Source: Acetobacterium woodii (lineage in GTDB: Bacteria > Bacillota > Clostridia > Eubacteriales > Eubacteriaceae). Taken from it: a stretch of 64,000 nt of DNA. The stretch lies in NCBI GenBank assembly GCA_016213825.1, contig JACQZP010000021.1, positions 393,109 through 457,108 of the forward strand, in the 5' to 3' direction. The first letter of the stretch is position 1, and each line of letters begins with the position of its first letter. The notes beneath the pieces are model-generated. The model searched no databases. It saw nothing but the letters and a program-made list of their open reading frames with translations, and had not been told where the DNA came from. The position numbers and the translations under genes are program-made. Shown here one piece after another: positions 60,818-64,000 of this stretch.

Positions 60818-61216
60818 TTAACAGCAGTCGCTTTTTACTTCGCCACAGCCACACCCACAGCCGCCATCGGCGGGTTTTTGCGCTTTTTGAACCATCTTGA
60901 CAATATCTTCTCTCGTCATGCCGGCCCATTCAGCAAAATTTGCATTGGAAGGATAAGATCCCTTTTGTCTGATTTCGCCATCCACAACTGTAATCGGTAG
61001 CGCTTCAGTGCCTTCGTTGGCAATCGTATCATTGACTTCTTTATTGGTCACAAACGCCATCGGGTCACTGGAAAGATTGTAACGGCTGATTTTTCTGCCT
61101 TCGCCTTCCAGCTCATTTAGAAACGTTGAAACTCTCAACAGCTCAGGATCAACTCCAGGTCCGCAGACACCGGTTGAACAGCACATTGCTGGTTCAAATA
61201 TTTCGACTTTACTCAT
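60818..61216 (-). CDS. arsD: ArsD-family arsenical/antimonial metallochaperone-repressor, copy 1
   Basis: 132 residues with the ArsD N-terminus EIFEPAMCCSTGVCGPGVD, containing the vicinal Cys pair plus a third Cys that bind As(III)/Sb(III). GLP-like ALPITVVDGEI and the C-terminal Cys-rich GGCGCGCGEV...CC follow. ArsD is known to hand As(III) to the ArsA ATPase and to repress ars transcription weakly. No arsA, arsB or arsR is seen here. ATG 61216 has GGAG 8 nt upstream (TTG at 61222 less likely). It has its own promoter and operator-like site at 61284-61328. Confidence 0.88.
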   Translation of the reverse strand: MSKVEIFEPAMCCSTGVCGPGVDPELLRVSTFLNELEGEGRKISRYNLSSDPMAFVTNKEVNDTIANEGTEALPITVVDGEIRQKGSYPSNANFAEWAGMTREDIVKMVQKAQKPADGGCGCGCGEVKSDCC

Positions 61217-61283
61217 ATTCAATTCTCCATTTCATTAATCATAATTTGTGATGCTTTGTCGCCTGTAGCTCAATAAAGCTCAG

Positions 61284-61333: not shown

Positions 61334-61711
61334 TTAACAACAATCTCCGCCACAAAAGCTTTTATTAGCCATTTTAGCTTTCATCATCATCATCACCAAT
61401 TCATCTTTGGACATACCCGCCCAGGTTGCCAAATCATGATTAGAGGGATAGGATCCCTTACTTTTGATTTCACCATCAACGACAACAATTGGCAGGGCTG
61501 CTACCCCCTCACTTTCAACAAGGTCATTAACGGTTTTGTTCATGGCAAACATTTCCGGATTTTCAGCCAGCCCATATCGTTTGATTGATTTTCCTTCGTT
61601 TTCCAGGGCTTTGATCATGGTTGACATCCGAAATAATTCCCGATCGCCTCCAGGACCACATCCAATTGGTTTGTTACTTGTAATAGGGTCATATATTTCA
61701 ATTGTTTTCAT
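61334..61711 (-). CDS. divergent ArsD-family protein, copy 2 (vicinal Cys pair lost)
   Basis: 125 residues aligning with copy 1 over the whole length (ELFRMST, VDGEIKSKGSYPSN, WAGMSKDELV). At the metal site it reads PITSNKPIGCGPGG instead of PAMCCSTGVCGPGV, so two of the three As-binding cysteines are gone and one Cys remains. The C-terminal CGGDCC is kept. GGAG 6 nt upstream supports ATG 61711 over 61723. It may have a changed ligand or be a regulator only. Stop lies only about 6 nt from the promoter of copy 1. Confidence 0.8.
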   Translation of the reverse strand: MKTIEIYDPITSNKPIGCGPGGDRELFRMSTMIKALENEGKSIKRYGLAENPEMFAMNKTVNDLVESEGVAALPIVVVDGEIKSKGSYPSNHDLATWAGMSKDELVMMMMKAKMANKSFCGGDCC

Positions 61712-61772
61712 GACATTCTCCATTTCATCTTCTCTTATTTATAAAAATCACAGGAATAAGTTTTTTATCAGA

Positions 61773-61839: not shown

Positions 61840-61944
61840 GTGATATTAACTAAGATGAATCTTTTTTATGAATCATTTAAGTTAATTTTTTTAATTTCAA
61901 TCAAGATTTCAAGCAAAATTTTAAGCAAAGATAGTCGTTTTGCG

Positions 61945-61973
61945 TTGCATTATCACCTAAAATCGTGTATAAT
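61945..61973 (+). promoter_or_regulatory. sigma-A promoter of the RNA gene at 61980
   Basis: TTGCAT, 17-nt spacer, TATAAT. It is oriented away from the arsD genes and leads into a region without a reading frame. Confidence 0.85.
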
Positions 61974-61979
61974 AAAATT

Positions 61980-62160
61980 ACTCCGAAGTTTAAGATTTCT
62001 AAGGTATTTTTAACTATGAACTTAAACCCGTAGGGTATAATCGGAAACGATTATGTCTCCCAGTGTGGAAAAGGGGCTTAACCGGGCTTATGTCTGTGTT
62101 ATTTTGCATTTGTTAAGTGCAGAAAAAAAAGACCATTCCATTAGGAGTGGTCTTTTTTTT
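61980..62160 (+). ncRNA. structured small RNA candidate, about 180 nt, family not assigned
   Basis: Begins about 7 nt after a TATAAT and ends in a strong terminator (AAGACCATTCC/GGAGTGGTCTT then eight T). Elements: GUUUAAG (61988-61994) pairs with CUUAAAC (62021-62027). AUAAUCG-GAAA-CGAUUAU (62037-62054) is a 7-bp stem capped by a GNRA tetraloop and extended by GGG/CCC (62033-62035 with 62059-62061). GCAUUU/AAGUGC forms a further hairpin (62106-62120). UUAUGUCU occurs twice (62051, 62088). No start codon with ribosome site. Length and position suit a 6S-like or other stand-alone RNA, but I cannot assign a family; SRP, tmRNA and RNase P signatures are absent. Confidence 0.7.
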
Positions 62161-62163
62161 CCC

Positions 62164-62221
62164 AGAGCGTCCCTGAATTTTATTTATTTGTAACCGAAAT
62201 ATTACGAAATCAGGACACTTT
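62164..62221. repeat. short inverted repeat, possible remnant of an insertion element
   Basis: AGAGCGTCCCTGAATTT (62164-62180) and CGAAATCAGGACACTTT (62205-62221) are imperfect inverted repeats around an AT-rich 24-nt core. It resembles the ends of a deleted mobile element, but no transposase is nearby. Confidence 0.35.
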
Positions 62222-62234
62222 CTTTTATAAGCTT

Positions 62235-62268
62235 AAGCCGGACTAACCAACCGGCTTTGGTTTTTTTT
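62235..62268 (+). terminator. rho-independent terminator
   Basis: AAGCCGG/CCGGCTT with a 9-nt loop and TTTTTTTT after TGG. It is the second plus-strand terminator after the RNA gene; no gene lies between. Confidence 0.75.
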
Positions 62269-62295
62269 GTTTTATAAACATTGAGCGTTCTAACT

Positions 62296-62347
62296 AAAGA
62301 TGAGCATCAGAAAACGCATACGCTGTTTTCTGATGCTCATCTTTTTT
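62296..62347. terminator. terminator after the moaD-like gene
   Basis: AAAGATGAGCATCAGAAAAC pairs with its complement across a short loop, one of the longest stems in the window. T runs on both strands (stronger on +). It ends the AOR-moaD transcript on the minus strand. Confidence 0.85.
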
Positions 62348-62363
62348 AGGTTGATCTGCAAAA

Positions 62364-62600
62364 TCAGCCTCCTGCAACAGGAGGAAAAATTGCCATGTAA
62401 CCATCTTCTTTGATCGGAACAGTGAGCATGGCATCAACTTTTCCATCAACCCCATCCACAATCAATGCGGCAATTTCCGGGGCCGTAATGCCCAAGCTGT
62501 CAATGACATCCTGACCTGTCATCCCAGGCGTATAGTCTACTTCAACAATCTTCCCCCGGCCTTCTCTGAAGTTCGCAAACAGTTTAACTTTAATTGCCAT
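62364..62600 (-). CDS. MoaD/ThiS-like sulfur carrier linked to AOR
   Basis: 78 residues of the ubiquitin-like fold, MAIKVKLFANFREGRGK at the start and the essential C-terminal Gly-Gly (FPPVAGG), which is adenylated and thiocarboxylated in this family. Beside an AOR gene it probably supplies sulfur for the tungsto/molybdopterin dithiolene. It follows AOR by 50 nt with an intervening hairpin. Confidence 0.85.
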   Translation of the reverse strand: MAIKVKLFANFREGRGKIVEVDYTPGMTGQDVIDSLGITAPEIAALIVDGVDGKVDAMLTVPIKEDGYMAIFPPVAGG

Positions 62601-62650: not shown

Positions 62651-64000
62651 TTATAACAAGCCTAATTTTTCCAGACGTTCTTCGGTAGGAATCCCATCTT
62701 CGTCCCAGCCACGTTCTTTGTAGTACAGTGGCAGTAATTCATCCAATTTGTGAACCCAACCTTTGGTTGGTCCTTCCGGCATTTCTTCTTCTAGCAGACG
62801 CGGTGGCAGGGTATCTTCATCTGGTGAAATACCAGCTTCTAAATTAAAGAGCTTTTCCAGATTCCAGATTCGTTCGCCGGCTAACAGCACATCATCAGCC
62901 GACCAGTTTGTGCCTAAAGTTTCATTTAACATATCAGCATATTGTTGGGCACCCAACGCAAATGAGGTAAACAGACATAAGCCGGTGGAGTCAATGACAG
63001 CGGTCAGATCCTGGAAGATTTTTGCCCAAGTTGGTTTTCCGGCTAATTCAAAGCGATCCAGTTTTTCCGGCAAGCCCAGAATTTCAGGTGAGATCAGGTA
63101 GCCACGCACATGACAGCCGCCACGGTTGGAGGTTGCATATTGCAGACCCATGCCCTGGATTCCACGGGGGTCATAAGCTGGCAGATCCTGTTTTTTAACA
63201 GACATGGAGTATTCGGGAACACCGAAGAAATCAGCCAGTCGGTAAGAGCCCCGGGCCAGTAAATCGCCAAAGCCTTCCCGGTTACCCATTTTCTTGAGCC
63301 AGTGAACCACTGAATCCGCGTTGCCGAACTTCAGGATCACGTCGTCATCGAGCATTTCATCGGTGATATAACCCCGTTGATAGAGCTCCATGGCAGCGGC
63401 CAGGGTTGCCCCAGCTGAGATGGTATCAATTCCCAGTTCATTACACCAGTAATTGGCGTCGATAACCACTTCCATGTCATCAATGCCTAAATCAGCGGCA
63501 AATACCCAGAGGGTTTCATATTCGGGTCCGCCGATGCCATCCGGACTCTTGTCGCTTTTTACCCAGCGGCCGCAGCCAATCGGGCAATGATGACAGGGAT
63601 TCCGTTTGATCAGGTATTTTTCGGTCAGAGTTTCACCGCTGACAGCTTCAGCATTGGGATCGACACCCCCCTGAAAGTTGTTGGTCGGATAAACCCCATG
63701 TTCATTGATAATATTAACCAGCACCGCGGTACCGTAGGTTGGCAGACCACCACCGGTGACACCGTTTTCTTTTATTAAGGTTCGGCATTCTTTAGTAACG
63801 GCTTTTAAGCCGTCAGGATTGGCGATTTCCGGTTTGAGGTTGCCTTTAACCGTAATGGCTTTGAGGTTTTTCGAACCCATCACCGCACCTACGCCGGAAC
63901 GACCAGCGGCACGGTCTTTTTCGTTCATGATGGCGGCCATCTGGGACAGTTTTTCACCAGCTGGACCGATGGTTAAAACCTTGGCGCCGGGTTGTTTTTC
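62651..64000 (-). CDS. aldehyde:ferredoxin oxidoreductase family protein (5' end outside window)
   Basis: 449 C-terminal residues are visible; the frame is open through the right edge, so the ATG at 63940 is internal. Visible AOR features: AGRSGVGAVMGSKNLKA (pterin-binding region), CHHCPIGC for the [4Fe-4S] cluster with the last Cys in DSTGLCLF, and GIDTISAG (bispterin domain 3). The enzyme interconverts aldehydes and carboxylic acids with ferredoxin using W or Mo; in acetogens it reduces acetate to acetaldehyde. Full-length enzymes have about 580-620 residues, so roughly 150 N-terminal residues are missing. Confidence 0.92.
   Translation of the reverse strand, partial: EKQPGAKVLTIGPAGEKLSQMAAIMNEKDRAAGRSGVGAVMGSKNLKAITVKGNLKPEIANPDGLKAVTKECRTLIKENGVTGGGLPTYGTAVLVNIINEHGVYPTNNFQGGVDPNAEAVSGETLTEKYLIKRNPCHHCPIGCGRWVKSDKSPDGIGGPEYETLWVFAADLGIDDMEVVIDANYWCNELGIDTISAGATLAAAMELYQRGYITDEMLDDDVILKFGNADSVVHWLKKMGNREGFGDLLARGSYRLADFFGVPEYSMSVKKQDLPAYDPRGIQGMGLQYATSNRGGCHVRGYLISPEILGLPEKLDRFELAGKPTWAKIFQDLTAVIDSTGLCLFTSFALGAQQYADMLNETLGTNWSADDVLLAGERIWNLEKLFNLEAGISPDEDTLPPRLLEEEMPEGPTKGWVHKLDELLPLYYKERGWDEDGIPTEERLEKLGLL

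Follow-up and report, generated by a model that had tools for sequence, protein, structure and literature searches.

The window, that is, the whole stretch of 64,000 nucleotides that was analysed, is part of contig C10 of a genome of 3.94 Mb (labelled G000; other genomes and contigs are named in the same way), and near its end it carries an RNA gene on the plus strand. Both flanking genes lie on the minus strand: an arsD-like gene at 61334-61723 and a moaD-like gene at 62364-62600, whose product also matches the NCBIfam MoaD and SAMP1 models, both under their cut-offs. Next to the latter lies a gene for aldehyde ferredoxin oxidoreductase (AOR), whose start codon begins at G000:C10:457558 (genome coordinates). 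The features of the region, in positions of the window, are these:

61945-61973, plus strand: promoter of the RNA gene, TTGCAT-17-TATAAT (from the sequence, conserved in homologues)
61970-62091, plus strand: Moco/Tuco riboswitch aptamer RF01055, P3 stem absent, Tuco type putative (cmscan, 57.2 bits, gathering cut-off 36)
62079-62124, plus strand: two linker hairpins between aptamer and T1 (MFE fold)
62131-62160, plus strand: terminator T1, presumed to be riboswitch-controlled (stem-loop and T8)
62169-62216, plus strand: short stem Q, GUCC-C-UGA with UCAGGAC (MFE)
62172-62196, plus strand: antisense core, complement of the AOR mRNA leader and of part of its Shine-Dalgarno sequence
62235-62268, plus strand: terminator T2, whose loop ACUAACCAA hardly varies and where the proposed sRNA would end (alignment, G-U cells)
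62297-62346, plus strand: third hairpin with a T-run, probable extra terminator, not conserved
62364-62600, minus strand: gene of a moaD/ThiS-like ubiquitin-fold protein, convergent (Pfam ThiS, 28.0 bits, cut-off 22.5)
62651-64000, minus strand: AOR gene, cut by the window end (Pfam AFOR_N, AFOR_C)

A tandem pair of ArsD-like metallochaperone genes (60818-61222 and 61334-61723, minus strand) separates the RNA gene from the his genes, and ArsD-like genes of the same cluster also adjoin the unit in G001, G002, G003, G007, G010, G011 and G012. A plasmid search with the region gave no match.

The promoter proposed in an earlier note on this DNA is present, with TTGCAT at 61945-61950 and TATAAT at 61968-61973 separated by a 17-nt spacer. 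A script found the same promoter (TATAAT, 17-nt spacer and at most one change in TTGCAT) at 15 of the 20 homologous places; at the remaining five it chose other hexamers or weaker ones, and in rows where other hexamers were chosen (e.g., G003 and G008) the promoter was judged from an alignment of 19 copies instead, throughout which the TTGC of the -35 hexamer is invariant. As the earlier note had said, there is no plausible reading frame, since no ORF of at least 60 aa occurs on either strand of 61854-62363, and the RNA is not a leader, both neighbours being on the minus strand with no sense gene downstream. Its reading, a free-standing structured RNA that has a promoter and a terminator of its own and is probably a small regulatory RNA, holds up: judged from sequence, the gene combines its own promoter and intrinsic terminators, both conserved, with the lack of a reading frame, and the unit, for which conservation had been proposed as a check, is kept throughout the genus Acetobacterium (alignment of 19 copies). 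The family assignment fared otherwise. The RNA had been called one of unknown family, but cmscan against Rfam places its 5' part in RF01055, at 57.2 bits against a cut-off of 36, and this is the sole family over its cut-off in the whole window. 6S RNA, named as one candidate, is absent from the matches up to E = 1, the remaining 18 of which all fall under the cut-offs of their families.

The RF01055 match covers the whole model (positions 1-135 of 135; E 4.4e-11 in the scan of the window), with the columns of the P3 stem deleted and with the conserved core letters and stems present, including CUAAG, the GGAAAC loop and UGGAAA. Regulski et al. (2008; PMC2408646) associated RF01055 RNAs that lack P3 with the use of tungsten cofactor, and the aptamer is accordingly classed as P3-less RF01055 of the putative tungsten-cofactor (Tuco) type. 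The hairpins lie where the earlier note had put them: the GAAA-capped stem AUAAUCGGAAACGAUUAU, the T1 stem GACCAUUCC/GGAGUGGUC at 62131-62152 and exactly eight Ts at 62153-62160. The first linker hairpin shows compensatory pairs in the alignment, and T1 holds 30 GU cells, 18 of which come from one constant pair, against 3 AC cells. An alternative fold between the 5' ACUCC and the GGAGU of the terminator stem, also suggested there, lacks thermodynamic support, as its computed probability in a fold of 61978-62162 is about 1e-9; the altered P1 strand of G005 and G025 likewise counts against it. Folding of eight truncated transcripts revealed no antiterminator alternative to T1, and P1 and T1 form together in the MFE structure. 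A CUUAAC:GUUAAG pairing in the window was considered as an antiterminator and rejected, being not conserved in the alignment.

The gene had been thought to end at 62160, but the unit runs on to a second terminator at 62268, so that its 3' half (62161-62268) had been missed. In the alignment of 19 copies (one version of which holds 18 of these together with the degenerate G024_C73), conservation continues past T1 through a segment with GTCCCTGAATTTTATTTATTTGTAACC, a variable short stem and T2. The 5' end of the antisense core overlaps with this short stem, Q, and the remainder of the core lies in the AU-rich loop of Q. All 19 tails scored (G004_C1 was left out) have a closing stem, which is 5-8 bp long and varies in sequence between species, as in AUCCCUG/CAGGGAU, CGUCUC/GAGACG and GUCCUU/AAGGAC. 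Several pairs of T2 have changed on both sides, and its nine pairs over 19 rows, which come from one genus and are not independent, give 13 GU cells, 2 AC cells and 8 other mismatches, both AC cells stemming from the G004 C102 row, where the stem is shifted by one base. Because GU cells outnumber AC cells in T2, structural selection probably acts on the plus-strand RNA beyond T1. The third hairpin is absent in G005, G008, G021, G022 and G025.

The T2 loop ACUAACCAA (62242-62250) is almost invariant while its stem varies, and we take it to hold a YUNR-like U-turn motif, as in the antisense RNA literature. This loop could form 7 bp with AOR codons 2-5 (UUGGUUA), a short match that is not collinear with the pairing of the core and serves as a hint only. 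RNAalifold, run on the full alignment, also predicted long-range pairs between the aptamer stretch GUGGAAAAGGGG (GUGGAAAAGGG, 62065-62075) and the core at 62171-62183, which were set aside because the single-sequence fold of the window lacks them; if these pairs were real, the aptamer could also mask the antisense core.

The target of the core lies at G000:C10:457570-457594, about 0.5 kb past the window end, in the AOR leader, which reads TATAAT-GATAATGGTTACAAATAAATAAAATTTAGGAGGCGTACGAA-ATG. Core and leader form 25 contiguous bp (23 Watson-Crick, 2 GU) that include the AGG of the Shine-Dalgarno sequence, with a computed duplex energy of -30.2 kcal/mol, and none of 1000 dinucleotide shuffles of the tail reached 25 bp, the longest run being 18. 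Exact copies of the 13-mer TTTATTTGTAACC number 38 and occur in 16 of the 19 Acetobacterium genomes. In most AOR loci two copies lie 2.0-2.3 kb apart on the same strand: one belongs to the tail, and the other directly precedes the AOR start codon, in antisense orientation to AOR. Sites outside this scheme are tails away from AOR, two alcohol dehydrogenase (ADH) leaders, the leader of G006, which has no intact tail core, and a copy that falls within an open reading frame (G011:C1:3523704). When the tail was scored against 476 start regions, namely those of the ORFs of the fetched loci rather than of a whole genome, the 16 top scores all belonged to AOR leaders, the AOR of G004 not being among them; the best other start region had a 15-bp run in the U-tract of T2, and the longest other run had 18 nt with 6 GU. 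Contiguous helices served as the score because RNAduplex over-extends on whole tails, ranking some non-AOR start regions high when given all 110 nt.

A similar specificity emerges from the 22-mer GGTTACAAATAAATAAAATTYA, which with at most three mismatches has 41 sites in 14 of the 19 genomes, a search that misses the one-base-shorter versions of G005 and G025 and the leader of G004. The 34 sites with at most two mismatches consist entirely of riboswitch tails (18), leaders of AOR (15) and one ADH leader, and of the seven sites with three mismatches one is the tail of G004 and six lie elsewhere; the reversed 22-mer, used as control, has 2 sites. Three of these six sites have nearly identical letters and stand at G001:C9:55010, G003:C74:46207 and G007:C11:108703.

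The position of the unit relative to its presumed target recurs across the genus. RF01055 is found at 59 places in 18 of the 19 Acetobacterium genomes, 58 of them over the cut-off, and at 17 of the 59 the aptamer has the location typical of antisense-acting riboswitches, 3' of the AOR gene and pointing against it, at a distance of 475-574 nt (14 places) or 264-279 nt (3 places). Other aptamers of the genus are in sense, before genes of the NuoE/F type, formate dehydrogenase, moeA-like and tungstate-transporter-like genes (the last under NCBIfam cut-offs) and, in G001_C21, before a distant AOR-like gene. Across the order, RF01055 occurs in 35 of 67 genomes, including the 18 of the genus. Outside the genus, 42 of 51 places were inspected (the other nine lie in G047 and G048), and a sense ORF comes next at 40 of them, with an AOR-like gene as the first or second ORF at 7 of these 40; of the other two, one lies at a contig end and one is nominally antisense to a small ORF of no assigned function. 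As these places are nearly all in sense, the antisense form behind AOR was seen, among the places inspected, only in Acetobacterium.

The convergent orientation at 17 places would also fit interference in cis, in which read-through transcription enters moaD-AOR from its 3' end and represses it by polymerase collision or by formation of a long duplex, and such an arrangement has a precedent in what is proposed for the S-box of the ubiG operon of Clostridium acetobutylicum (PMC7154746; PMC9943018). The conserved T2, joined in several species by the third hairpin, stands before moaD, though, and interference in cis leaves unexplained why the tail is complementary to an AOR leader 2.0-2.3 kb away and why a unit occurs at G000:C13:88819, behind a gene for a sigma-54 regulator. 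This mode of action is therefore unlikely.

Action of the tail on the AOR leader finds further support in how the two sequences have changed. AOR genes, 20 in number and 87-100 percent identical, are present in 16 of the 19 genomes, and the target is found in 18 of the 20, in G004 in a variant form. The paralogues that lack it (G003 C38 and G007 C6) have no riboswitch either, and their best helix is 10 bp; at both loci (G003:C38:7489-10495 and G007:C6:3078-6079) the AOR is paired with an ADH gene. Among the 18 cognate pairs of tail and leader, 15 form 24-26 contiguous bp, the weak ones being those of G021 (16 bp), of G004 (14 bp and five mismatches) and of G006 (11 bp at another place), where the core is shortened and the aptamer has diverged to under the search threshold. 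Over 17 pairs, the register comprises 389 Watson-Crick pairs, 27 GU, 4 AC and 5 other mismatches, all five in G004. G005 and G025 share a change in both core and leader, and with either of these two leaders their tails reach 45-48.5, against 20.5-38 with all others. For the tail of G004 the score is 26.5 with its own leader, against 20.5-22.5 with others; as a counter-case, the leader of G004 scores 26.0 with the foreign tail G000_C13, near the value for its own. Computed interaction energies of co-folding range from -28.8 to -39.7 for 16 pairs, whereas those of G004 (-12.9) and G006 (-13.4) are hardly better than those of the riboswitch-less AORs (-11.4 and -6.6). Hence, complementarity to the region of translation start is conserved and co-varies, with G006 as an exception and with G004 and G021 weaker.

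The sequence that tail and leader have in common could in principle act as DNA, GGTTACAAATAAATAAAATTTAGG being an operator that binds a repressor or activator at the AOR promoter and behind the operon, with the riboswitch merely adjoining. An operator could plausibly lie where this site does, directly downstream of the -10 box in AOR and in one ADH gene, and partly similar sequence occurs in the ADH leaders of G002, G003 and G007. A DNA site does not account for differences between copies that are mainly GU-compatible (27 GU against 4 AC and 5 other, in cells that are not independent), for a match that takes in part of the Shine-Dalgarno sequence, or for a riboswitch-side copy that sits in an RNA stem-loop whose stem sequence varies and that precedes a terminator whose changes fit the plus strand. 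An operator is consequently rather improbable, slightly more so than interference in cis.

A covariance model built from 19 tails of 15 genomes matches 23 places in 17 of the 19 genomes of the genus, one being a relic and one degenerate, and when run with stricter filters against 48 other genomes of the order it has no matches. Matches that were not among the training rows lie in G006 and G009 and, as second copies, in G010 and G024, and up to three copies per genome occur (G000 and G010). The tail is carried by 16 of the 16 genomes with a close AOR; G023 and G026 have neither. In G009 (4,044,777 bases), which has no close AOR and no RF01055 match at the site, a relic of tail and T2 remains beside a gshF-like gene (G009:C1:2648150-2648246), as if moaD-AOR, the aptamer and T1 had been lost there. 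That the whole unit is a relic, a riboswitch that lost its sense gene and whose terminator and flank persist by shared descent, is very improbable: it has no sense gene downstream, whereas a sense ORF follows at 40 of the 42 inspected places outside the genus, and decaying copies do exist (G006 and G009), but 19 aligned copies share a conserved promoter, aptamer, T1, core and T2, separated by spacers that vary, and the most decayed copy (G009) lies in a genome without a close AOR.

We consider it likely, on the aptamer, the two terminators and the conserved, co-varying and specific complementarity, that the locus encodes a riboswitch-gated antisense sRNA that blocks AOR translation upon read-through of T1. 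RNA polymerase would start at about 61980 and first make the P3-less aptamer of the Moco family. With cofactor bound, transcription would stop at T1, the step that we infer to be under ligand control, and yield an aptamer RNA of about 180 nt. Since the RNA up to T1 lacks the antisense core, only the read-through RNA can pair with AOR. When cofactor is scarce, read-through of T1 would produce an RNA of about 290 nt that ends at T2 and whose tail offers the 25-nt core, mostly in a loop, to the AOR leader and Shine-Dalgarno sequence, keeping ribosomes off. The arrangement would act as an inverter, an OFF switch that works as an ON switch, and would restrict synthesis of the tungsten enzyme AOR to conditions under which its cofactor is available for loading. 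By analogy, the ligand probably favours T1 (OFF polarity) over the opposite, a preference that is only moderate because the folds contain no explicit antiterminator.

Action in trans may extend to further genes. The ADH leader at G010:C1:3085432 pairs with the tail of its own genome over 22 contiguous Watson-Crick positions, and the orthologous gene of G021 (G021:C3:78186) forms 14 bp with its own tail. Both genes (G010:C1:3085432-3086599 and G021:C3:78186) presumably encode iron-type alcohol dehydrogenases, and their leaders are candidate trans targets. The G010 leader resembles the AOR promoter region and may derive from its duplication. ADH leaders at 16 of 19 loci were examined, and partial likeness appears in three more (G002, G003 and G007), with no visible likeness in the rest. 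Genome G000 holds two further riboswitch-tail units (G000:C13:88819-88938 and 92323-92444), which flank genes for a sigma-54-type regulator and for a radical SAM protein that resembles, at 332 bits against a cut-off of 380, the tungsten oxidoreductase maturase TIGR04317, and the second AOR beside them is 99 percent identical to the first. Another unit lies near a contig end at G004:C102:45057-45375, in sense behind other genes. With somewhat more doubt than confidence, we suggest that these RNAs could form a dispersed family of trans-acting sRNAs that controls the two AOR genes and, depending on the species, also the partner ADH, that a single sensor of the tungsten cofactor could set the branch between acetate, aldehyde and ethanol, and that within Acetobacterium this family could have replaced the sense riboswitch of related genera for this AOR.

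The aptamer family, and the P3-less subtype tied to tungsten cofactor use, are those described by Regulski et al. (2008; PMC2408646), whose riboswitches, as presented there, lie upstream in sense, whereas here the RNA carries no gene and lies behind and against its presumed target. Antisense-acting riboswitches were surveyed by Serrano-Gutierrez and Merino (2023; PMC9943018), and according to the main text of that survey the Moco family is over-represented among them (24 antisense and 834 sense cases, P 4.34E-05), with cases at Mo/W cofactor genes included. The present locus shares with them the 3' position, the antisense direction and a cofactor user that would be expressed only with the cofactor present; however, the mechanism proposed in that text is antisense transcription into the gene, whereas T2 and the 25-nt leader complement suggest a short sRNA here. 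Neither "Acetobacterium" nor "ferredoxin oxidoreductase" appears in that main text, and its table S3, which was beyond reach, may list the locus.

Other riboswitch-controlled RNAs share parts of the proposed arrangement. In Listeria, AspocR is an antisense RNA under a cofactor (B12) riboswitch that represses a gene of cofactor-dependent metabolism, and it works in trans, probably on translation, according to the relevant section of PMC8079631; it is described there as 1,400 nt long and antisense to the gene, whereas the RNA proposed here has about 290 nt and addresses the leader and Shine-Dalgarno sequence of a start about 2.3 kb away. As in SreA, a SAM riboswitch that acts in trans on prfA, a riboswitch RNA would act on another RNA, but for SreA the same section gives the terminated product as active and a sense operon as present. 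As in Rli55, a B12 riboswitch that sequesters EutV, the active part would lie behind a regulated terminator, although there a protein is bound rather than an mRNA (PMC8079631). The S-box antisense RNA of ubiGmccBA in C. acetobutylicum is likewise a riboswitch-controlled convergent RNA, for which the account in PMC7154746 proposes interference in cis, with no effect in trans, and describes no leader-complementary tail. The proposed logic, in which low cofactor leads to the RNA and the RNA to repression, is that of AspocR and of the ubiG S-box RNA as these sources describe them. In a transcriptome of A. bakii, the portion of PMC6239172 that concerns such RNAs gives transcription start sites for two Moco RNAs close to molybdopterin genes, together with 69 start sites that are intergenic. 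A literature search for a riboswitch-antisense RNA acting on aldehyde ferredoxin oxidoreductase found no publication. The aptamer and the general arrangement are known, and the short, leader-targeting sRNA tail was not found described in the literature searched. An explicit, testable target sequence exists here, whereas the cases of PMC9943018, as given in its main text, rest on orientation and gene function.

If this reading is true, the locus would be a compact natural NOT gate, in which an OFF riboswitch turns an enzyme on through an antisense sRNA. Formation of ethanol by gas-fermenting acetogens is associated with AOR, and a cofactor-gated repressor of this enzyme would bear on how tungsten supply steers their products. 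The sense riboswitches before AOR-like genes in related genera, set against an antisense sRNA in Acetobacterium, would amount to an evolutionary experiment in riboswitch rewiring.
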